DNA of 64,000 nt from assembly GCA_903825465.1 (NCBI GenBank), contig CAIKAR010000017.1, positions 1 to 64,000 on the forward strand. Reading direction: 5' to 3'. This DNA comes from an uncultured Hyphomicrobiales bacterium. GTDB lineage: Bacteria > Pseudomonadota > Alphaproteobacteria > Rhizobiales > Beijerinckiaceae. Under the pieces are notes generated by a model. The model made no database searches and had not been told where the DNA came from. It worked only from the letters and a program-made list of their open reading frames with translations. Made by a program: the position numbers and the translations under genes. Shown in pieces: positions 25,392 through 34,203 of the stretch (its first letter is position 1; each line of letters opens with the position of its first letter).

Positions 25392-25805
25392 CTAAATGTC
25401 GACGACCACGTAGTCCTTCTCGCGCGCGACTTCGAAGCGTTCCGCGACATAGGGTCCCTTCGCCAGTTCCTCGCCGTGTTCGACGCCGACGTTGAACTTG
25501 CGCGCCCGCGTCGATTTCGGATCGCAGTAGGATTGGCCCGAACGGAGCTCGAATTCCCAGCCGTGATAGGGGCAGCGCAGGAACTCGTCCTTGCGCGCCA
25601 GCCTGTATTCGCCGGGCCGGTCGGACAGCGCGAGGCCGGTGACGAAGCCTTCGACCATCGGGCCGCCGCCGTGCGGGCAGCGGTTGGCGAAGGCGAAATA
25701 TTCGCCGCCGACGTTGAAGACGGCGATTTCGCGGCCCGCGACATTCGCCAGCTTGCGCTGGCCGGGCGCGAGTTCGTCGGCCGCGGCGACAATATGTTTC
25801 GTCAT
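25392..25805 (-). CDS. Rieske [2Fe-2S] ferredoxin, module B
   Basis: 137 residues from ATG 25805. Rieske cluster ligands: Cys43-x-His45 (NRCPHGGG) and Cys78-x2-His81 (RCPYHGWEF). Single-domain soluble ferredoxin with no oxygenase catalytic domain. Its start overlaps the stop of the frameshifted amidohydrolase gene (ATGA). Sequence closely parallels the Rieske protein at 29767-30186 (KGPYVAE/KGPYVAD, YVVVDI/YIVIDL endings), so it belongs to the second copy of a duplicated amidohydrolase-amidohydrolase-Rieske module. Electron donor role inferred; no oxygenase alpha subunit is nearby. Confidence 0.9.
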   Translation of the reverse strand: MTKHIVAAADELAPGQRKLANVAGREIAVFNVGGEYFAFANRCPHGGGPMVEGFVTGLALSDRPGEYRLARKDEFLRCPYHGWEFELRSGQSYCDPKSTRARKFNVGVEHGEELAKGPYVAERFEVAREKDYVVVDI

Positions 25806-26898
25806 AGATTGTAAAGCGCCCGCGCGTTGTCGCGAAGCAACATCGCGCGCTGGGCGTCCGTCATCTTGAACTTCAGGCAATAGCGGGGGTCGTCGTAGTC
25901 CCAATGGGGATAGTCGGTCGAGAACAGCAGCCTGTCCCAGCCGATCCAGTCGATAATATCGACAAGGTCCGCGGGGTTCTCGGGCTCTTCCATCGGCTGT
26001 GTCGCGAACCAGAAGTGCTCGCGAACGTATTCGGACGGCGGCCGCTTGAGGTGCGGCACCTCGTGGCGCATGCGCTCCCAGTGGCGGTCCATGCGCCAGC
26101 AAATCGCGGGTATCCAGGTGAAGCCGCTTTCGATCAACGCCACCTTCAGCTTCGGGAACCGCTCGAACACGCCCTCGAAGACCATGCTGACGACGTTGCC
26201 CTGCATGTTGGCGCCGAAGGCGTAGTGCTCCTGCATGTAATAAGTCGGCCAGCCCGCGCCCGTGGAGGGATGCGCGCCGTTGCCGGCGGGATGCAGGCCC
26301 ATCGGCAGGCCGCACTCTTCCGCCGCTTCGTAGATCGGCCAGTAGCGCTGGCGCCCCAACGGCTCGATCGAGCGCGGCGAGATGATCACTTGCCGGAAGG
26401 AGGGATCGCCCGCGCGCGCGCGCGGATTTCCTTCGCCGCGAATTCCGGATCTTCTTGCGGCACGACGATTCCCGCGCGCAGCCGCGGCTCGGGCCGCACC
26501 CAGGCCTCGATCTGCCAGTCGTTGACAGCGTGCGACAAGACCCGCGCGTATTCGGTGTTGCGCTCCTCCATGCCGCCCTTGCTCAGCGACACAAGCATGC
26601 CGATCTCGACGCCGGCGTTGTCGAGGTGCTGGCGTTGCATCAGCGCGAGGTCGGAGCCGGGTGGGCCGCCGCGCTCGGGATAGGCGTCGGCGCGCTGTCC
26701 CGCCGCCATCATCCGGGGATGCGCCTGCATCGCGCTCAGCCCCTGCCGGATGTGCGGGCCGATGGACTTCGCGTGCGCGACCCAGCGCGCGCTCATGTAA
26801 GGAAACAAGTCCGCCAGCGAGCGCTGGATCGGGTGGATGTCGCAATCGACGAAGGCGAGGCGCTGGCTCGCCGTGGTGTCAACGAGGGGCGCGTTCAT
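25802..26898 (-). pseudogene. Amidohydrolase family 2, module B, frameshifted at a (CG)7 tract
   Basis: Coding starts at ATG 26898 (FVDCDIHPIQRS, Asp18/Asp20/His22) and reads in one frame to about 26424. There it slips: the first frame ends at a stop at 26386, while the rest of the protein (DPSFRQVIISPRSIEPLGRQ to SRAL-type end at 25802, including LHPAGNG and STDYPHWDYDD) continues in another frame. The paralogue at 30183-31304 shows the expected continuous sequence EIEKRAGDGRFSQ. With six instead of seven CG units the gene would read EIRARAGDPSFRQ in frame. Either a recent inactivation, slippage-type variation, or an assembly error. Stop and start overlap both neighbours (ATGA). Confidence 0.85.
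26411..26424. repeat. (CG)7 dinucleotide tract at the frameshift
   Basis: Seven CG units in a row. Removing one unit restores the amidohydrolase frame. Such tracts are prone to strand slippage and also to sequencing error in GC-rich DNA. Confidence 0.85.
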
Positions 26899-27980
26899 GG
26901 GCGGCCTCCTTTTTTCTCCGCGACGAGGCGCGGATAGCTGGCCATTGGATTGTCGATCAATATTTTGCGGATCAAATCATCCGGCAGGCCGTCGGGCAAG
27001 GCCTCCTCGCCGGCGAACTGGGCGTGGGGATAGTCCGTCGAAAACAGGATCATGTCGTCGCAGGCGATCTGAGCGAGGGTCTTGCGCAGTTGGACGCCGT
27101 CGGGAGGCGCGTCGACTGGTTGCAACGTCAGCCGCACGCGCTCGCGCACGACCTCCGAGGGAAGCCGGTCGAGCCACGGCACCTCCTGCCGCACGCCGCG
27201 CCACTCCTTGTTGAGCCGCCACAGCAGCGTCGGCAGCCAGGTGAAGCCGCTTTCGAGACAGACGACGCGGAGATCGGGGAATTCGTTGAACACGCCTTCC
27301 GCGAGCAGCGCGACGATGGCGTTCTCGAAGGCCGTGCTTTGGCCGACATAGTCCTCGACGTGGAACGACGGCCAGCCGGAGCCTGTCGGCGCCTGGCGAT
27401 AGAGCGAGCCCGCGTGGATGGCGAGCGCCAGCCCGCGCTTCTCGCAAGCGCGGTAGATCGGCCACAAGGCGCGCTTGCCGGGCAGGGTGTCGCCCATGAC
27501 GAGCGTCAGCGCTTGCACGAAGCGCTCGTCGGGCGCGACGCGCTCGATTTCGCGCACCGCGTGTTCGGGGCTCGACGCCACGACGAGGATCGAACCGCGC
27601 AAGCGCGGCTCGTGATCGAGCCAGTCGCGGGCCATGTGTTCGTTGACAGCCGAGCACAGAACCGCGGCCATGTCGTCGTTGTAGAGGCCGATGGCGCCGT
27701 GGAGGATCGACGCCACGGCGATCCGCGTTCCATGGGGATCGAGCGCCTCGCGCCGCAGCTTGTCCAGCGGCGTCTCGCCCTCGCGCGTGGCTTGCCAATC
27801 CTCGCGCGCGCCGAGCGGGGTGCGCGCGGGAAAGCTTGTGAGCGCGAAATCCATTCGGTCGATGCGGCGCGTGAGGAACTGCTCGCGCCAGAAGGCGTCG
27901 ATGAAGGGCGCGAGTTGCGCCATGCCCGGAAGCGGCAGGTGCAGGTCGCAGTCTATGGCGCCGGGATAGGGGACTTTCAT
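26895..27980 (-). CDS. Amidohydrolase family 2, module B first subunit
   Basis: 361 residues. N-terminal motif AIDCDLHLPLPG (Asp10, Asp12, His14) with Asp in place of the first His of H-x-H; central His in LAIHAGSLY; CLESGFTWLP where canonical members have H-x-G-G; C-terminal Asp in FSTDYPHAQF. Same architecture as the 31301-32422 protein (DAYWRQQFLNRGIDK versus DAFWREQFLTRRIDR). Its stop overlaps the start of the next amidohydrolase (ATGA), and it begins 6 nt after the permease stop. Metal hydrolase or decarboxylase; probably forms a complex with its neighbour. Confidence 0.87.
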   Translation of the reverse strand: MKVPYPGAIDCDLHLPLPGMAQLAPFIDAFWREQFLTRRIDRMDFALTSFPARTPLGAREDWQATREGETPLDKLRREALDPHGTRIAVASILHGAIGLYNDDMAAVLCSAVNEHMARDWLDHEPRLRGSILVVASSPEHAVREIERVAPDERFVQALTLVMGDTLPGKRALWPIYRACEKRGLALAIHAGSLYRQAPTGSGWPSFHVEDYVGQSTAFENAIVALLAEGVFNEFPDLRVVCLESGFTWLPTLLWRLNKEWRGVRQEVPWLDRLPSEVVRERVRLTLQPVDAPPDGVQLRKTLAQIACDDMILFSTDYPHAQFAGEEALPDGLPDDLIRKILIDNPMASYPRLVAEKKGGRP

Positions 27981-27986
27981 GAGCCG

Positions 27987-29747
27987 TCACAATCGATTTG
28001 TGTAGTGCTTCAACACCCGGATTTGAAGCCAGCGGAAGACGAACACCAGCAGCATCATCAGCAGCCCGATGACGCTGACCTGTTCGGCGAGGCCGTTGGC
28101 CCAAAGCTTCATCAGCGTCACCGACAGCACCTCGGAGCCGACGGAATACAGCAGCACCGAGGCCGAAAGCTCGCGCAGGATGCCGAAGAAGGTCAACACC
28201 CAGCCCACGGCGAACGACGGCCACGCCAGCGCCACGAGAATGCGCCACAGCGTTTGGAAAAACGACGCGCCGGCGGAGCGCGCGCTCTCCTCGAGGTCGG
28301 CGGACATTTGCGCGTAGGCGGCGCTCATCACGCGCGTCGCCACCGGCGTGCCGAGCGAGAGATAGGCGAGCAACAGCGCCCAGATCGTGCCGTAGATGGG
28401 GATCGGCCCCGGCAGCATGGCGAAGGCCCAGAGAAAGCCGAGGCCGAGCACCATGCCGGGCATCATCCACGGCATCCACGCGAGGCCGTCGACGATCGCC
28501 CGCCCGCGCCAGCGCGTGCGCGTGACGACATAGGCGACAATCGAGCCAAGAAGCATGGTCAATGTCGCGCCGCCGAGGCCAAGCAGCATCGTGTTCGACA
28601 CCGCGCGCCAGATTTCTCCCGACGAGAACACGGCCTGATAATGTTCCAGCGTCAGCATGTCCCACTGGTAGAATCCGAAGAAGCGGAAGAACGAGCCGAT
28701 GAACAACTGGCTCACCGGCAGAACCACCGTGACGAAGAAGAAAAGCGCGCAGAACGCGAATGTCGCCCAGCGCCACCCGCCGAGCTGCGTCACATGCGGC
28801 GAATAGCCCTTGCCGCTGACGGTGACGAAGTTCTTTCCGCGCAACAGGCGCCATTGGATGAACACCAGCGAAAACATCAGCGCCATGACGCCGAAGCCGA
28901 TGGCCGTCGCGTATTGGTAGTCCGGCGTCGCGTGGTGGTTGATCGAGTTGTACATCTCCGTCGTGATGACGGAGATCTTCGCCGGAGTGCCGAAGAAGAG
29001 CGGCGATTCGAAGTTCTCCATGCCGCGGATGAAGCTGAGGATGAAGGCGTTGGTGAGCGCCGGCAGCATCAGCGCCAGCGTGATCGAGCGGAAGGTGCGC
29101 AGGCGGGAGGCGCCGCTCATGCGGCTCGATTCCTCGAGCGCCGGGTCCATGGCGCGGAAGACGTCGACGATGAACAGGAAGAGGAACGGCGTCGAATACT
29201 GGATCATGTGCCAGACCACGCCGCCCCACGAATAGACGTTGATCGGCGAGTAGTTGGTCCCTGTCGCCCATTTGAACAGCTGGTTCAGCAGGCCCACTTG
29301 CGGATTGCCGAGCATCGCCCAGGCCATCGCGGTCAGGATCGGAGGAATGAAGAACGGCAGCGTGATCAGGATTTCGAGCTTGTCGCGATAGGGCGTGTCG
29401 GTGCGCGCGATGATCCACGCGAGGAACACCGCGAGGATCAGCGAGGGGATCGTCTTGCCGAGCGAAATGCCGATGGTGTTGAGCAGAACGCCGAGCGCCT
29501 CGGGGCTCATCAACTGGCGGTAGCCGTCGAGGTTGAATTCGCCCGCCATGCCCGGCGGCGTCGAATGCAGGCTGCCGTACATCAGCATGCCGAACGGATA
29601 GATCGTGAGGAACGACAGAAGGACGATCAGCGCCGCGACGCCCACGCCGCGCCCGGGCGCGTGGCGCGACCAAAAGCCGTCGTCGGCGCGGGGCGCCGCG
29701 CGAACGCCCATCTGGCCGGCCGGCGAAGGCGCCGGTATCTCGGTCAT
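27987..29747 (-). CDS. Fused two-domain ABC permease of the iron/polyamine type
   Basis: 586 residues with ATG 29747; GGAAGGGG lies 7-11 nt upstream, better than a TTG two codons earlier. About twelve membrane helices form two binding-protein-dependent transport domains, each with an EAA loop: LEESSRMSGASRLRTFRSI (first half, about 208-226) and LEESARSAGASFFQTLWRI (second half). This is the FbpB/AfuB-like fused permease that works as a single membrane unit. The matching binding protein may be the one divergently coded at 32555; no ATPase gene of this type is in the window. It sits between the two amidohydrolase-Rieske modules. Confidence 0.9.
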   Translation of the reverse strand: MTEIPAPSPAGQMGVRAAPRADDGFWSRHAPGRGVGVAALIVLLSFLTIYPFGMLMYGSLHSTPPGMAGEFNLDGYRQLMSPEALGVLLNTIGISLGKTIPSLILAVFLAWIIARTDTPYRDKLEILITLPFFIPPILTAMAWAMLGNPQVGLLNQLFKWATGTNYSPINVYSWGGVVWHMIQYSTPFLFLFIVDVFRAMDPALEESSRMSGASRLRTFRSITLALMLPALTNAFILSFIRGMENFESPLFFGTPAKISVITTEMYNSINHHATPDYQYATAIGFGVMALMFSLVFIQWRLLRGKNFVTVSGKGYSPHVTQLGGWRWATFAFCALFFFVTVVLPVSQLFIGSFFRFFGFYQWDMLTLEHYQAVFSSGEIWRAVSNTMLLGLGGATLTMLLGSIVAYVVTRTRWRGRAIVDGLAWMPWMMPGMVLGLGFLWAFAMLPGPIPIYGTIWALLLAYLSLGTPVATRVMSAAYAQMSADLEESARSAGASFFQTLWRILVALAWPSFAVGWVLTFFGILRELSASVLLYSVGSEVLSVTLMKLWANGLAEQVSVIGLLMMLLVFVFRWLQIRVLKHYTNRL

Positions 29748-29766
29748 CGCCAAACCCCTTCCGCGG

Positions 29767-30186
29767 TCAAAGGTCGATCACGATGTAGTCTTGCTCGACG
29801 GCCACCGGAAAGGTGTCCGCGACATAAGGCCCCTTGACCAGCGCCGCGCCGCGCTCGACCCCCGCCTCGTAGGCGCGCGCGCGCGTGTTGGCGGGGTCGC
29901 ACCACGACTGTCCCGTGCGAATGCCGAATTCCCAGCCGTGCCATGAACACTTCACGAATTCGCCGTCGCGCGAAAGCCGGTATCTGCCGGGCTCGTCGGC
30001 TTCGGCGAGGCCGACGACCTTGCCCGCGCACAGCGAGCCGCTCTCGTGCGGGCATTTGTCGCCGAGCGCGAAGAACGCGCCGCCGAGGTTGAACAGCGCG
30101 ATGTCGCGTCCCGCGACCGCGATCTTCTTGCGCGTTCCCGGCGGCACGTCGTCGACGCGCGCCACAACGTGTCGTGTCTTGCTCAT
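29767..30186 (-). CDS. Rieske [2Fe-2S] ferredoxin, module A
   Basis: 139 residues. Cluster ligands Cys45-x-His47 (DKCPHESG) and Cys80-x2-His83 (KCSWHGWEF). Small soluble ferredoxin. Start overlaps the stop of the preceding amidohydrolase (ATGA). Paralogue of 25392-25805. A Rieske protein tightly linked with amidohydrolases and without an oxygenase or reductase gene is unexpected; it could feed electrons to a distant oxygenase or serve a redox step on the hydrolase product. Confidence 0.9.
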   Translation of the reverse strand: MSKTRHVVARVDDVPPGTRKKIAVAGRDIALFNLGGAFFALGDKCPHESGSLCAGKVVGLAEADEPGRYRLSRDGEFVKCSWHGWEFGIRTGQSWCDPANTRARAYEAGVERGAALVKGPYVADTFPVAVEQDYIVIDL

Positions 30187-31304
30187 GGCAGGCCGTACAA
30201 CTCCCTCGCGTTGCCCGACAGCACGCGCTTCAAATCGTCGTCGCCGATGCGCAGCTTGCCGACCACGAACTTCGGCTCGTCGAAATCCCAGTGGGGATAG
30301 TCGGTCGAGAACATGATGCGGTCGAAGCCGACCAGGCCGAACATTTCGGCCAAATCACCGTCGTTGTCGGGCTCGTCGAGCGGCTGCGTCGTCATCCAGA
30401 AATGGTCGTGGATATATTCCGACGGGAGGCGCTTGAGGTGCGGCGCCTCGCTTTTCAGCCGCTTCCAGTGCTTGTCGAGCCGCCATTTCAGCGACGGCTG
30501 CCAGGCGACGCCGCCTTCGACCAGGACGACTTTCAACCCCGGGAATTGCGCGAACACGCCTTCCACCACCATGCTGGTGATGAGGCTCAGCATGCCGGTG
30601 ACGTTGGTGTGCTGCTCCTCGATGTAATAGGAGGGCCTGCCGCTCGCCGTCGGCGAATAGCCGTTGACGCCGCCAACATGCAGCGCCAGCGGCAGACCCA
30701 GCGCGCTCGCCGCTTCGTAGATCGGCCAGTATTTTCGCCGCCCCAGCGGTTCGAGGCTTTTGGGCGGCAGCATGATCTGGGAGAAGCGCCCGTCGCCGGC
30801 GCGCTTCTCTATTTCGGCGACGGCGAAAGACGGGTGCTCCTGCGTCACGACGATCGAGGCCTTGAGGCGCGGATCGCGCTCGACCCAATGAGCGAGTTGC
30901 CAGTCGTTGACCGCGCCCGCCAGCGCCGCGCCATATTCGAGGTTGCGCTGGTTGCCCGGCCCGCGGTTGAGCGGCATCAGCATGCCGTATTCGACGTTGT
31001 TGGCGTCGAGATGCTGCTTTTGCATGAAGGCGAGGTCGGAGCCCGGCAGGCCACCCGTCGGTGGCCAGGCGTCCGCGCGCGCGACATCCGGCGCCATGCG
31101 CGGATGCGACAGCGTGTCGGCCAGCGCTTGACGATAAAGCCCGCCATAGGTCTTCGCGTAGTCGCGCCAGCGCTCGGGCAGAAAGCCAAGGACGTCGGCG
31201 GGGCTCGCCGCCTGCGGATGGATATCGCAGTCGATCACGCCGAGCTTCGCCTCCTTTGGGCCGACTCGCGGCGCGCGCGGAAGTTCAAGCGTTTGAGCGC
31301 TCAT
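30183..31304 (-). CDS. Amidohydrolase family 2, module A second subunit
   Basis: 373 residues from ATG 31304, which overlaps the stop of the upstream amidohydrolase. N-terminal motif GVIDCDIHPQAAS (Asp25, Asp27, His29), central His in LALHVGGVNG, LVEGGVAWQPSL, and Asp in FSTDYPHWDFDE. Intact counterpart of the frameshifted gene at 25802-26898 and useful as the reference for its frame. Substrate unknown. The first His of the usual H-x-H is Asp, and the usual HGGG is EGGV, so metal coordination must differ from ACMSD. Confidence 0.87.
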   Translation of the reverse strand: MSAQTLELPRAPRVGPKEAKLGVIDCDIHPQAASPADVLGFLPERWRDYAKTYGGLYRQALADTLSHPRMAPDVARADAWPPTGGLPGSDLAFMQKQHLDANNVEYGMLMPLNRGPGNQRNLEYGAALAGAVNDWQLAHWVERDPRLKASIVVTQEHPSFAVAEIEKRAGDGRFSQIMLPPKSLEPLGRRKYWPIYEAASALGLPLALHVGGVNGYSPTASGRPSYYIEEQHTNVTGMLSLITSMVVEGVFAQFPGLKVVLVEGGVAWQPSLKWRLDKHWKRLKSEAPHLKRLPSEYIHDHFWMTTQPLDEPDNDGDLAEMFGLVGFDRIMFSTDYPHWDFDEPKFVVGKLRIGDDDLKRVLSGNARELYGLP

Positions 31305-32422
31305 GGCGTCGCCTCCGTCAGGCGGGGATAGGTTTCCATCGCGTTGTCGCGCAGCACGCGGCGCGCCAGCGGGCTCGCGGGGTCGAGCGGCAGCGCGTCC
31401 GTCCCCTCGTAGTGCCAATGCGGATAGTCGGTCGAAAACAGCAGCATCCTGTCGCTGTCGAGCATCTCGCAGAAGCGCTCGAGGCGGCGCGCGCCGTCGG
31501 GTTCGTCGAAGGGCTGGGTCGTCAGGCGGATGTGGTCGCGAACGATATCCTTCGGCGGACGCTTCACCCAGGGAACTTCCGCGCGCACGCCGCGCCACGT
31601 CTTGTTGAAGCGCCACAGGCAAGCGGGCAGCCATGTGACGCCGGATTCCTGAAACACGATTTTCAAATTCGGGAATTTGGCGAACACGCCCTCGCTGACG
31701 AGGCTGAGCGTCGCGCTTTCGAAGGCGAAGGCCTGCGCCACGTAGTCTTCGAGAAAGTACGAACCATAGCCGTTCGCCATCATCGGGTGGTGGTAGGCGC
31801 TTCCAGCGTGCACCGCGACGGGCATGCCGTGCTTTTCGGCGGCGCGGAAAATGGGCCAGTTGTGGCGCTTGCCGAGCGGCGTCTCGCCCGCCACCAGCAT
31901 CGTCGCCGACACAAAGCGGCGATCGCCGGCGCGCCGCTCGATCTCCTCGGCCGCCAGGTCGGGATTGCCGAGCGGCAGCACGATGGAGGCGCGCAGGCGC
32001 GGCTCCTTGTCGAGCCATTCCGCCGCGATCCAGTCGTTGACCGCCGCGCAGACCACCGCCGACATGTCCTCGCTGTGCAACACGGCGCCGCCCCACAGGC
32101 ATGTGGCGATGGCGGTTTGAACGCCAAATCCATCGAGCACGGCGGCGCGCAGCATCGCGAGGTCGGTCCCGGGCTTGCCCTGCGCCGGACGCCAGTCGGG
32201 GCGCCCCGAAATCGGCGCGTTGGGAGCCTCGCTGGTCAGACTCCAGCTCAGCTTGTCGATGCCGCGGTTCAAAAACTGCTGACGCCAGTAGGCGTCCAGA
32301 TAAGGCATGATGGCCTTGATCGACGGAACCACGATATGCGCGTCGCAATCAACGGCGGGGGAGCCGAAGACGCTCGCGCCATCCCCGGCTCTCACGACCG
32401 TCGTTTCAGCCCCCTGGGCCAT
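31301..32422 (-). CDS. Amidohydrolase family 2, module A first subunit
   Basis: 373 residues. ATG 32422 chosen because GAGGGA lies 7 nt upstream and the frame further up enters the divergent gene. Motifs: AVDCDAHIVVPS (Asp25, Asp27, His29), VAVHAGSAYHH, FQESGVTWLP, FSTDYPHWHYEG. Paralogue of 26895-27980. It is the first gene of a seven-gene operon reaching 25392; the promoter must lie in the 132-nt gap shared with the divergent binding-protein gene, which contains a TGGTCAA direct repeat. Confidence 0.87.
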   Translation of the reverse strand: MAQGAETTVVRAGDGASVFGSPAVDCDAHIVVPSIKAIMPYLDAYWRQQFLNRGIDKLSWSLTSEAPNAPISGRPDWRPAQGKPGTDLAMLRAAVLDGFGVQTAIATCLWGGAVLHSEDMSAVVCAAVNDWIAAEWLDKEPRLRASIVLPLGNPDLAAEEIERRAGDRRFVSATMLVAGETPLGKRHNWPIFRAAEKHGMPVAVHAGSAYHHPMMANGYGSYFLEDYVAQAFAFESATLSLVSEGVFAKFPNLKIVFQESGVTWLPACLWRFNKTWRGVRAEVPWVKRPPKDIVRDHIRLTTQPFDEPDGARRLERFCEMLDSDRMLLFSTDYPHWHYEGTDALPLDPASPLARRVLRDNAMETYPRLTEATP

Positions 32423-32554: not shown

Positions 32555-33571
32555 ATGAAAAACATGGCCTTGCGAACGTTTGTCGCGATGGGATGCGCCG
32601 TGGGCGCCGGCCTCGCGGCCCGCGCGGACGAGTGGGACGCCGTCGTCGCCGCGGCGAAGAAGGAAGGCGCCGTCACCGTCTACCACGCCCAGCTCGGCGC
32701 GCCGCACTGGAAGAAAGTGGTTCAGGACTTCGAAGCCAAATACGGCGTCAAGGTGGGCGAGTTCGACGCCCGCGCCAGCGAGATGAACGAGCGCATCCGC
32801 GTCGAGCAGACCTCGGATCATTTTGTCGCCGACGCCGAGTTCCACGGCGACTCCTCGATCATTCAGCAACGCCAGACGAATTTCGTCGACAAGCTCGGCG
32901 ACATTCCATACGCCGCGCGGCTTCGCCCGCCGTTCGAGCGCAACGACTACTCGATTCCAGCGTGGAACCAGGTTGTTTGCATGCTCGTCAACACCAACAT
33001 GGTGAAGCCGGACGACGAGCCCAGGCAATGGAAGGATTTGCTCGACCCCAAATGGAAAGGCGGCAAAATCCTCACCGACGACATGCGCGCGGTTGGCAGC
33101 GGGCAAACGGTCTACGCCGTGCTGACCAAGACCTACGGCGAGGACTTCACCCAAAAGCTCGCGGCGCAGAACATGGGCGTCGGCCGCGATCTCCAGGACG
33201 ATTCCCGCCGGATCGCGCGCGGCGAATACGCGTTGTTCATCAATCAGATCATCGCCTTCGCCTCGCCCTTGAAGGGCTTGCCGGTCAAGGTTGTCCTGCC
33301 CTCGGACGGCTGTCCCTTCACGCCGATCCAAGGCGCCGTGTTGCGCGGCGCGCCACATCCCAACGCCGCGCGCCTGTTCATCAACCACCTGCTCGACCTG
33401 AAATCGCAAACGACGTACGCCGAGGCGTGGATGGGCACCGTGACACAGGGCGTTGTGGAGGCTTTGAGCGACCCCGAAGCGAAGCGCTTCGCGCAGGTCA
33501 AGACGATGGGCTCCATCGCCTTCGACGACCGCGAGGCGATGCTCAAGCGCGCCACCGACCTTTTCAAATGA
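32555..33571 (+). CDS. Periplasmic iron/polyamine-type ABC binding protein
   Basis: 338 residues, ATG 32555 with GGAG 7 nt upstream. Signal peptide 1-24 (VGAGLAARA). Family-1 extracellular solute-binding fold: EGAVTVYHAQ, FEAKYGVKVGEF, WNQVVCMLVNTNMV, WKDLLDPKWKGGKI, PHPNAARLFINHLL. Resembles AfuA/FbpA-type proteins, several of which in catabolic loci bind organic acids, not iron; the Tyr pair that binds iron in FbpA is not evident. Probably serves the fused permease at 27987. Stop overlaps the glutathione-transferase start (ATGA). Confidence 0.88.
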   Translation: MKNMALRTFVAMGCAVGAGLAARADEWDAVVAAAKKEGAVTVYHAQLGAPHWKKVVQDFEAKYGVKVGEFDARASEMNERIRVEQTSDHFVADAEFHGDSSIIQQRQTNFVDKLGDIPYAARLRPPFERNDYSIPAWNQVVCMLVNTNMVKPDDEPRQWKDLLDPKWKGGKILTDDMRAVGSGQTVYAVLTKTYGEDFTQKLAAQNMGVGRDLQDDSRRIARGEYALFINQIIAFASPLKGLPVKVVLPSDGCPFTPIQGAVLRGAPHPNAARLFINHLLDLKSQTTYAEAWMGTVTQGVVEALSDPEAKRFAQVKTMGSIAFDDREAMLKRATDLFK

Positions 33572-34203
33572 ACGGGGAATACATTCTGCACGGCGCGGTC
33601 CGCTCGTCGGCCGCGTGGCGGGCGCGCGTCGCTCTTGAATTGAAGGGATTGCCCTACCGCGAAATCCGCCGCGATTTGAACAAGGGCGAGCAGAACGCGC
33701 CGGACTATCGAGCCGTCAATCCTCAAATGCTCGTGCCGAGCCTCGTGTGCCCGAACGGCGCGGTGTTGTGGCAATCCCTGGCGATCATCGACTATCTCGA
33801 CGAGGTTCATCCGACGCCGGCGTTGTTGCCGCCGACGCCGGAGGGACGCGCCCGCGCGAGAGCGTTGGCGCAGATGATCGCTTGCGACATCCACCCGATC
33901 AACAATCTGCGTGTGCGCGAACATGTGCGCGCGCTGCTGCCCGGAGACCCCGGCGCCATGGCGAAATGGCAGGCGAAATGGAACAACGCCGGCTTCGACG
34001 CGATCGAGGCGATCCTCGCCGGAAGCCCGGATCTGGGGGCGTTTTCGTTCGGCGACAGGCCGGGCTACGTCGAATGCTTTCTGGTTCCCCAGGTTGGCAA
34101 CGCCAAATCCGCGGGACGGAGCATGGAGCCTTATCCCGTCATCGCGCGGATCGCCGACGCGTGCGCCGAACTCGGACCTTTCCAACGCGCCCGTCCGGCC
34201 TAG
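33568..34203 (+). CDS. maiA: Zeta-class glutathione transferase, maleylacetoacetate isomerase-like
   Basis: 211 residues. The zeta-class N-terminal signature appears as RSSAAWRARVALELKG (12-27, Ser13-Ser14), followed by NPQMLVPSL and WQSLAIIDYLDE, then a helical C-terminal domain with ACDIHPINNLRV. MaiA isomerises maleylacetoacetate or maleylpyruvate with glutathione in tyrosine, homogentisate or gentisate breakdown. No homogentisate genes are adjacent, though a fumarylacetoacetase-like gene lies at 50279. Start overlaps the binding-protein stop. The symbol rests on the zeta motif; other isomerase substrates are possible. Confidence 0.75.
   Translation: MNGEYILHGAVRSSAAWRARVALELKGLPYREIRRDLNKGEQNAPDYRAVNPQMLVPSLVCPNGAVLWQSLAIIDYLDEVHPTPALLPPTPEGRARARALAQMIACDIHPINNLRVREHVRALLPGDPGAMAKWQAKWNNAGFDAIEAILAGSPDLGAFSFGDRPGYVECFLVPQVGNAKSAGRSMEPYPVIARIADACAELGPFQRARPA

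Follow-up and report, generated by a model that had tools for sequence, protein, structure and literature searches.

Two putative AibH1H2-type monooxygenase modules on either side of an ABC permease in an uncultured Beijerinckiaceae bacterium

Introduction

What kind of enzyme is encoded where two amidohydrolase-like genes and a Rieske ferredoxin gene occur in the same order twice, once on each side of an ATP-binding cassette (ABC) permease? The question is raised by a stretch of 64,000 nucleotides (contig CAIKAR010000017.1, positions 1 to 64,000, assembly GCA_903825465.1; the window) from an uncultured Hyphomicrobiales bacterium of the Beijerinckiaceae, in which such a double module occupies 25392-32422. 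We propose, with a probability of about 0.88, that the product of each module is a monooxygenase of several components belonging to the amidohydrolase-related dinuclear oxygenases (AROs), which would carry out the O2-dependent hydroxylation of a C-H bond in an imported small molecule.

The initial annotation of this locus recognised no pathway in it. In fact, the association of Rieske proteins with amidohydrolases has already been published and the enzyme kind is known (PMC7782822, PMC10401708, PMC10811679; statements taken from papers, here and below, refer to excerpts of them). AROs, which were named and found through their Rieske neighbourhood (PMC10811679), break strong C-H bonds with iron or manganese-iron sites. 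AibH1H2 of Rhodococcus wratislaviensis is an alpha2alpha'2 hydroxylase that works with AibG, a Rieske protein, and AibF, a flavin mononucleotide (FMN) reductase, and no product was formed with the four incomplete component combinations listed (PMC7782822). The ligands of AibH2 are D25, H27, H211, E265, D337 and H340, and the acidic residue at position 342 is missing from the mononuclear AibH1 (PMC7782822). AibH2 has a Mn/Fe site and its activity is diminished in D342A; among 555 AibH2-like proteins a Rieske protein co-occurs in 90% and a permease in 40% (PMC10401708). Our literature search joining Rieske, amidohydrolase, operon and Bradyrhizobium found no paper, and one on the family name used in PDB titles gave unrelated papers only, among the matches listed.

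Results

On the minus strand the locus reads H1-H2-Rieske (module A), permease, H1-H2-Rieske (module B), where H1 and H2 stand for the AibH1-like and AibH2-like genes:

31301-32422, minus strand: H1 of module A (AibH1-like, mononuclear-type alpha' subunit), 373 aa, P0001
30183-31304, minus strand: H2 of module A (AibH2-like, dinuclear catalytic-type subunit), 373 aa, P0002
29767-30186, minus strand: Rieske ferredoxin of module A (AibG-like), 139 aa, P0003; PF00355 at 54.2 bits
27987-29747, minus strand: fused two-domain ABC permease, 586 aa, P0004; two BPD_transp_1 stretches
26895-27980, minus strand: H1 of module B (AibH1-like), 361 aa, P0005; PF04909
26386-26898, minus strand: H2 of module B, 5' piece, before a frameshift, 170 aa, P0006; PF04909 at positions 1-102
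25802 to ~26410 (upper end approximate), minus strand: H2 of module B, 3' piece, after the frameshift, 202 aa as translated, P0007; PF04909 at positions 119-289
25392-25805, minus strand: Rieske ferredoxin of module B (AibG-like), 137 aa, P0008; PF00355 at 59.1 bits

The initial annotation had described seven minus-strand genes here. Their order and strand hold, as do six of the seven, but 25802-26898 is split by a frameshift. The other structural features that it named were all found: an ATGA overlap of 4 nt at each of the four intramodule junctions (31301-31304, 30183-30186, 26895-26898 and 25802-25805), a paralogue of each gene in the other module (identities of 47.0% for H1, 55% for the Rieske protein and 49% for H2 A against the 3' piece of H2 B) and a permease fused from two domains. 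Pfam scans placed Amidohydro_2 (PF04909) in every amidohydrolase piece and identified the two small proteins as Rieske-domain proteins. The motifs of the module A protein, C45-x-H47 and C80-x2-H83, are invariant across a ten-row alignment.

The proteins of module A are homologous to the Aib proteins at each position. A PDB search with H2 A gave AibH2 (6m1w_B, E 2.4e-82) as the top match, and the same search with H1 A gave AibH1 (8ful_A, E 1.9e-78). Since these best matches agree position by position and the Rieske gene stands in the place of AibG, the modules appear to be of the Aib-monooxygenase type. The structure model of H2 A (14 sequences, mean predicted local distance difference test score 81.5, weak at 1-19, 62-70 and 212-231) agrees with this, for in Foldseek the chains of AibH1H2, 8sm7 and SfbO ranked 1-11 (E 1.7e-30 to 3.7e-28), followed by AibH1 chains at ~1e-23, PtmU3 at 1.4e-14 and decarboxylases at ~1e-13. 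The Foldseek template modelling score against AibH2 chains was 0.80-0.86 by query length. H2 A is 41.7% identical to AibH2, 38.1% to 8sm7 and 33.9% to SfbO.

The metal site was compared across 80 H1 and 90 H2 sequences that scored above 200 bits and were longer than 900 nt, which left out fragments such as those of H2 B, and in which the subtype was named by the better profile score, so that the labels are not independent of sequence. All 80 H1 proteins carry the complete set of six AibH2 ligands; among H2 proteins the first four are present in 90/90 and the last two in 89/89 readable sequences, one being cut by a contig end. H2 A has all six, as the string DHHEDH. Position 342 is occupied by Asp in H2 A and in every readable H2 (89/89, with the same one cut) and in none of the 80 H1, which have His (23) or Gln (57) instead; H1 A has His and H1 B has Gln, both together with the six ligands. 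Since the presence of Asp342 in H2 and its absence from H1 is the split published for dinuclear AibH2 and mononuclear AibH1, it supports the assignment to the ARO kind. By analogy with AibH2, H2 is likely to bind two metals and to oxidise C-H bonds with O2. Asp as opposed to His or Gln at this position also offers a simple marker for telling the dinuclear type from the auxiliary subunit among proteins labelled 'amidohydrolase'.

As a control, 30 of the 48 Amidohydro_2 matches in the genome were aligned, the remaining 18 being lower-scoring and including the two H2 B pieces. Nine had the six ligands, and these were the same nine that scored >250 bits with the H1 or H2 profile; the other 21 were without the set and all had His, not Glu, at position 265. 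The initial annotation's term 'non-canonical' is apt only relative to hydrolases; the ligand set is that of AibH2. Its suggestion of a redox-linked hydrolase or decarboxylase was right in joining two amidohydrolase-fold proteins to a Rieske protein in a redox-linked enzyme, but the grouping is with the AibH1H2-AibG monooxygenases. Could the modules nevertheless encode a hydrolase or decarboxylase, of the gamma-resorcylate or 5-carboxyvanillate decarboxylase type, with the Rieske neighbour serving something else? The Pfam family PF04909 is common to both, and decarboxylases are among the next PDB matches of H2 A after the AROs and PtmU3 (E 1.2e-13). This match is, however, ~69 orders of magnitude weaker than that to AibH2 in the same search, Glu 265 is missing from all 21 of the other aligned proteins, and the modules have a recurrent gene order that includes the Rieske gene (below). 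We therefore consider this explanation very improbable. A role as part of an ordinary Rieske dioxygenase was also considered and is unsupported: the Rieske proteins score far under the HcaC, AndAb and NirD cut-offs, and a Pfam scan of 28 proteins or protein pieces of the window detected no Rieske-oxygenase alpha subunit.

The initial annotation had proposed a search for the three-gene order in other genomes, and the order does recur. We took the best 80 of at least 562 relatives of the Rieske protein, chosen by Rieske similarity with a query alignment built from amidohydrolase-linked Rieske genes. H1 or H2 was present in 71 of these loci and the order H1-H2-Rieske in 60. A further six have H2 adjoining the Rieske gene and no full H1-H2 pair counted: four at contig starts (L076, L080, L089, L091), one with H2 in two frames (L045) and one with no visible H1 (L030). 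Five have other orders, namely Rieske-transporter-H1-H2 in L040 and L083, Rieske-H1-H2 in L095, and those of L047 and L059. Many of the 80 are from Bradyrhizobium or other alphaproteobacteria, and therefore the loci are not independent. H1 and H2 are co-inherited: their distances correlate with r 0.962 over 80 pairs and with r 0.721 over the 34 pairs with H1 <75% identical, and in both cases 0/2000 shuffles were as high.

Several observations weigh against the ARO assignment. The six ligands alone do not tell H1 from H2. The AibH1 interface Tyr (PMC12141560) is not kept, being mostly Val, if a numbering offset of 12 is correct; the AibH1-AibH2 contact residues (PMC12141560) misfit with direct numbering, and at offset 12 Lys is found in 78/80 H1 but also in 64/90 H2. 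AibH2 homologues are not always accompanied by AibH1-like proteins (PMC12141560). An identity of only 41.7% between H2 A and AibH2 is too low for the substrate to be carried over. In L047 and L059 it is H1 rather than H2 that adjoins the Rieske gene, and nine of the 80 loci (L026, L033, L034, L037, L042, L081, L082, L090, L100) have no amidohydrolase in the flanking sequence examined. In a second genome of the genus (L128) module A is followed by the permease with no Rieske gene in between, and module B has no visible Rieske gene either. Finally, no AibF-like reductase gene stands beside the window's modules, and none for a reductase was detected in the flanks of the 80 loci, which extended over 6 kb at most and in many cases stopped earlier at a contig end.

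The reductase also bears on the three-subunit enzyme that had been suggested, which falls one component short: the published Aib system needs a fourth protein, a reductase, and this is not beside the modules. In 6 of 12 annotated plasmid loci (L013-L017, L020) a PDR/VanB reductase, or a ferredoxin plus a flavin adenine dinucleotide (FAD) reductase, is encoded at most 8 kb away. The PDR/VanB reductase of Sinorhizobium fredii has three homologues in the window's genome, 38-41% identical and on other contigs (C28, C1, C19), and weaker FAD-type reductase candidates are also present.

For the plasmids, we examined 13 among 20 listed of 201 matching records, one of the 13 being without gene annotation. 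Two amidohydrolase genes followed directly by a Rieske gene were found on plasmids of Roseomonas (two), Mesorhizobium, Rhodococcus and S. fredii, the last with weak subtype scores. Three loci (L013, L016, L182) have transporter genes between the Rieske and amidohydrolase genes, or the Rieske gene first, and a Sulfitobacter plasmid and three haloarchaeal records have a single amidohydrolase with a Rieske gene. In L014 (6106-8804), from a Sulfitobacter plasmid of 48 kb that was typed as conjugative, no H1 was seen, and an IS5-type transposase gene directly precedes H2. As a separate observation, one neighbour was scanned in seven of the nine amidohydrolase-free loci, and these were a kinase-phosphatase fusion (two), a major facilitator superfamily transporter, an AAA protein, a Peripla_BP_6 protein, an NHL protein and one familyless protein.

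The double module is the unusual part of the locus. In a Beijerinckiaceae metagenome-assembled genome (L022) the order is binding protein, H1, H2, Rieske, permease, ATPase, H1, H2, Rieske, which is the window order plus an ATPase. In L128 (1-9510) H1, H2 and the permease are followed by a second binding protein, the ATPase and another H1 and H2, after which the contig ends, and L039 has the end of the permease, ATPase, H1, H2 and Rieske. In quick trees, for which support is by the Shimodaira-Hasegawa-like approximate likelihood ratio test only, H1 B groups with the H1 of the second copies in L022 and L128 and with that of L039. In both trees H1 B and the 3' piece of H2 B fall with the second copies, a pair on contig C134 of the same genome being next, and module A falls with the first copies. 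A recent tandem duplication of one module was rejected, since H1 A shares only 47% identity with H1 B and the two have different relatives in the trees; modules A and B are, as judged from these trees, old and separate lineages.

Tandem H1-H2 pairs that share one Rieske gene occur in L029 (1590-6420), in L176 (12488-17304) and L031, whose contigs are equal in length, and in L178 (5364-10000), of the same genus as L176. In L176 and L178, genes for a binding protein, a permease homologue and an ATPase are close to the tandem pairs. When the three top candidates of each of 397 genomes of the order were scored, six genomes, that of the window among them, proved to have a close permease homologue (E at most 1e-150), and H1-H2 lies in the stretch examined in five of these six, L180 being the exception.

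Modules A and B might catalyse two successive steps, with the two oxygenases acting in turn on one imported compound or on what is formed from it. The arrangement A-permease-ATPase-B in L022, nearly so in L128 and partly in L039, would fit this, as would the two H1-H2 pairs near the same permease family, arranged differently, in L176 and L178, the tandem pairs of L029 and the placing of A and B in different clades. However, H2 B is frameshifted in the window, only an A-type module is present in the sequence examined of L024, L130 and L131, and co-location may stem from shared import alone. We hold this idea tentatively, as distinctly less probable than its negation. The wider proposal is slightly more doubtful: that this is a catabolic locus type in which two anciently diverged AibH1H2-like oxygenases, served by one importer, would perform two successive C-H oxidations of one imported molecule, apparently assembled at least twice (in the window, L022 and L128, and in the Rhizobiaceae L029, L176 and L178). 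We rate it as rather unlikely.

The span of H2 B (25802-26898) is 1097 nt, no multiple of three, and comprises two frames that join in a CG run, with the frameshift located within a CG repeat at window 26380-26440. Since this is the catalytic gene of module B, the module is either dead here or wrongly assembled, the frameshift being either a recent lesion or an assembly error. Both pieces remain H2-like, with 208 bits for the H2 profile against 88 for H1 in the 5' piece and 340 against 195 in the 3' piece. Module B could be a decaying remnant, leaving module A alone at work in this organism; consistent with this, the window lacks at 27980-27990 the ABC ATPase gene that L022, L039 and L128 carry after the permease and before module B. 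On the other hand, the pieces differ from L022, L035 and L039 by 0.42-0.48 at third codon positions and by 0.10-0.25 at the others, which is much the same bias as in comparisons of the intact H1 B and H2 A with relatives. Every ligand is retained, the first two in the 5' piece and the remainder in the 3' piece, as read from the sequence. Since both pieces still look constrained, the loss, if real, would be recent, and an error is plausible where a CG repeat is involved and the assembly consists of 142 contigs. Relatives have intact copies of the module B-type H2. Decay is a serious possibility, to which we would give slightly less than an even chance.

Module A and module B are not alone in this genome, whose 48 Amidohydro_2 matches include at least five H1-type proteins (A, B and those on contigs C18, C134 and C5) and five H2-type proteins (A, B in pieces, C18, C134 and C28), one H2 being split. 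The H1-H2-Rieske set is complete for a third time on contig C18, where LigB and TauD proteins are encoded nearby. C134 (L011 7431-9610) carries an H1-H2 pair with no Rieske match on the contig, convergent with a gene for an FAD-dependent aromatic hydroxylase. A lone H1 on C5 (L134 6891-7931) is near genes for a PhnU2-like fused permease, an enolase-superfamily protein and a PdxA-like protein, and a lone H2 lies on C28 (L133 7847-8950); these two may be partners encoded apart.

The initial annotation's idea that the locus has its own uptake system agrees with the ABC permease between the modules and the binding protein alongside. Two plus-strand genes, overlapping by 4 nt, diverge from module A:

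32555-33571, plus strand: ABC substrate-binding protein, divergent from module A; SBP_bac_6/11/8 matches
33568-34203, plus strand: maleylacetoacetate-isomerase-like glutathione S-transferase (GST); TIGR01262 maiA at 214.2 bits, cut-off 171

The binding protein, which has the same place beside module A in L022, L128, L129 and L132, probably belongs to the same importer as the fused permease. Homologues of the MaiA-like GST adjoin the binding protein in L129, L024 and L131, the maiA model having been run on the window copy only. Further plus-strand genes past H1 A encode enoyl-CoA hydratase-like and luciferase-like proteins. Against NCBIfam the permease is nearest to PhnU2, at 143 bits and far below the cut-off of 593.

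We clustered the neighbours of 43 non-redundant H2 loci, naming each cluster from one representative or from a reference set. Only transporter-like clusters occurred in at least four loci: the ATPase in 14, binding proteins in 12, the fused permease in 8, SBP_bac_5 in 7, and sugar-type parts and TctC-like proteins in 4-5. This means that the loci have no common pathway enzyme. Two substrates were considered and are unsupported: 2-aminoisobutyric acid (Aib), since aib pathway genes are absent among the neighbours scanned, and 2-aminoethylphosphonate, suggested by the PhnU2-like permease and PhnS-like binding protein, since the scores are far below the cut-offs. The MaiA-like GST, together with LigB and the FAD hydroxylase near the pairs on C18 and C134, might point to a connection with the degradation of aromatic compounds, although no pathway of ring cleavage was traced.

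Discussion

Beyond gene content, the mechanism that we infer from the Aib system would run as follows. A small molecule would be imported by the adjacent ABC system. An NADH reductase encoded elsewhere in the genome would pass electrons to the Rieske protein, which would hand them to a two-metal site (Fe/Fe or Mn/Fe) in H2, and this site would activate O2 and hydroxylate a C-H bond of the imported molecule. H1 would act as the one-metal partner in a heteromer with H2. The H1H2 complex, its metals, the O2 chemistry and the electron path are all predicted here from homology to the Aib system.

Databases still label these oxygenase proteins amidohydrolases, and the Aib system is the one catabolic ARO with an assigned natural substrate in the ARO literature cited. 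With H1-type and H2-type proteins numbering at least five each, this genome would be a good place to look for new substrates, as would a cultured relative.

Comparison with known systems

The modules share with the Aib monooxygenase the H1-H2-Rieske order, position-matched best matches, the metal ligands, the Asp342 split and a transporter gene nearby. They differ in that the H1 and H2 proteins of this genome are 31.5-41.7% identical to the Aib proteins, an ABC importer replaces the amino-acid permease, two modules are present, and aibD1/E/C/A-like genes were not seen among the neighbours scanned. Since an AibF-like reductase is likewise not in the window operon, each module resembles AibH1H2G rather than the complete aibH1H2GF operon.

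PtmU3, a diiron hydroxylase, likewise uses the PF04909 fold in O2 chemistry. It is distant from H2 A (E 2.1e-15), acts on coenzyme A-ligated substrates in diterpenoid biosynthesis (PMC7782822) and is without an AibH1-like partner (PMC10401708).

SfbO and the proteins of 8sm7, 8sm8 and 8sm9 (PMC10811679) are PF04909 dinuclear oxygenases that were also found via a small Rieske neighbour, and SfbO and 8sm7 keep the six ligands and Asp342. These proteins were expressed and studied without an H1 partner, whereas H2 in the window is paired with H1.

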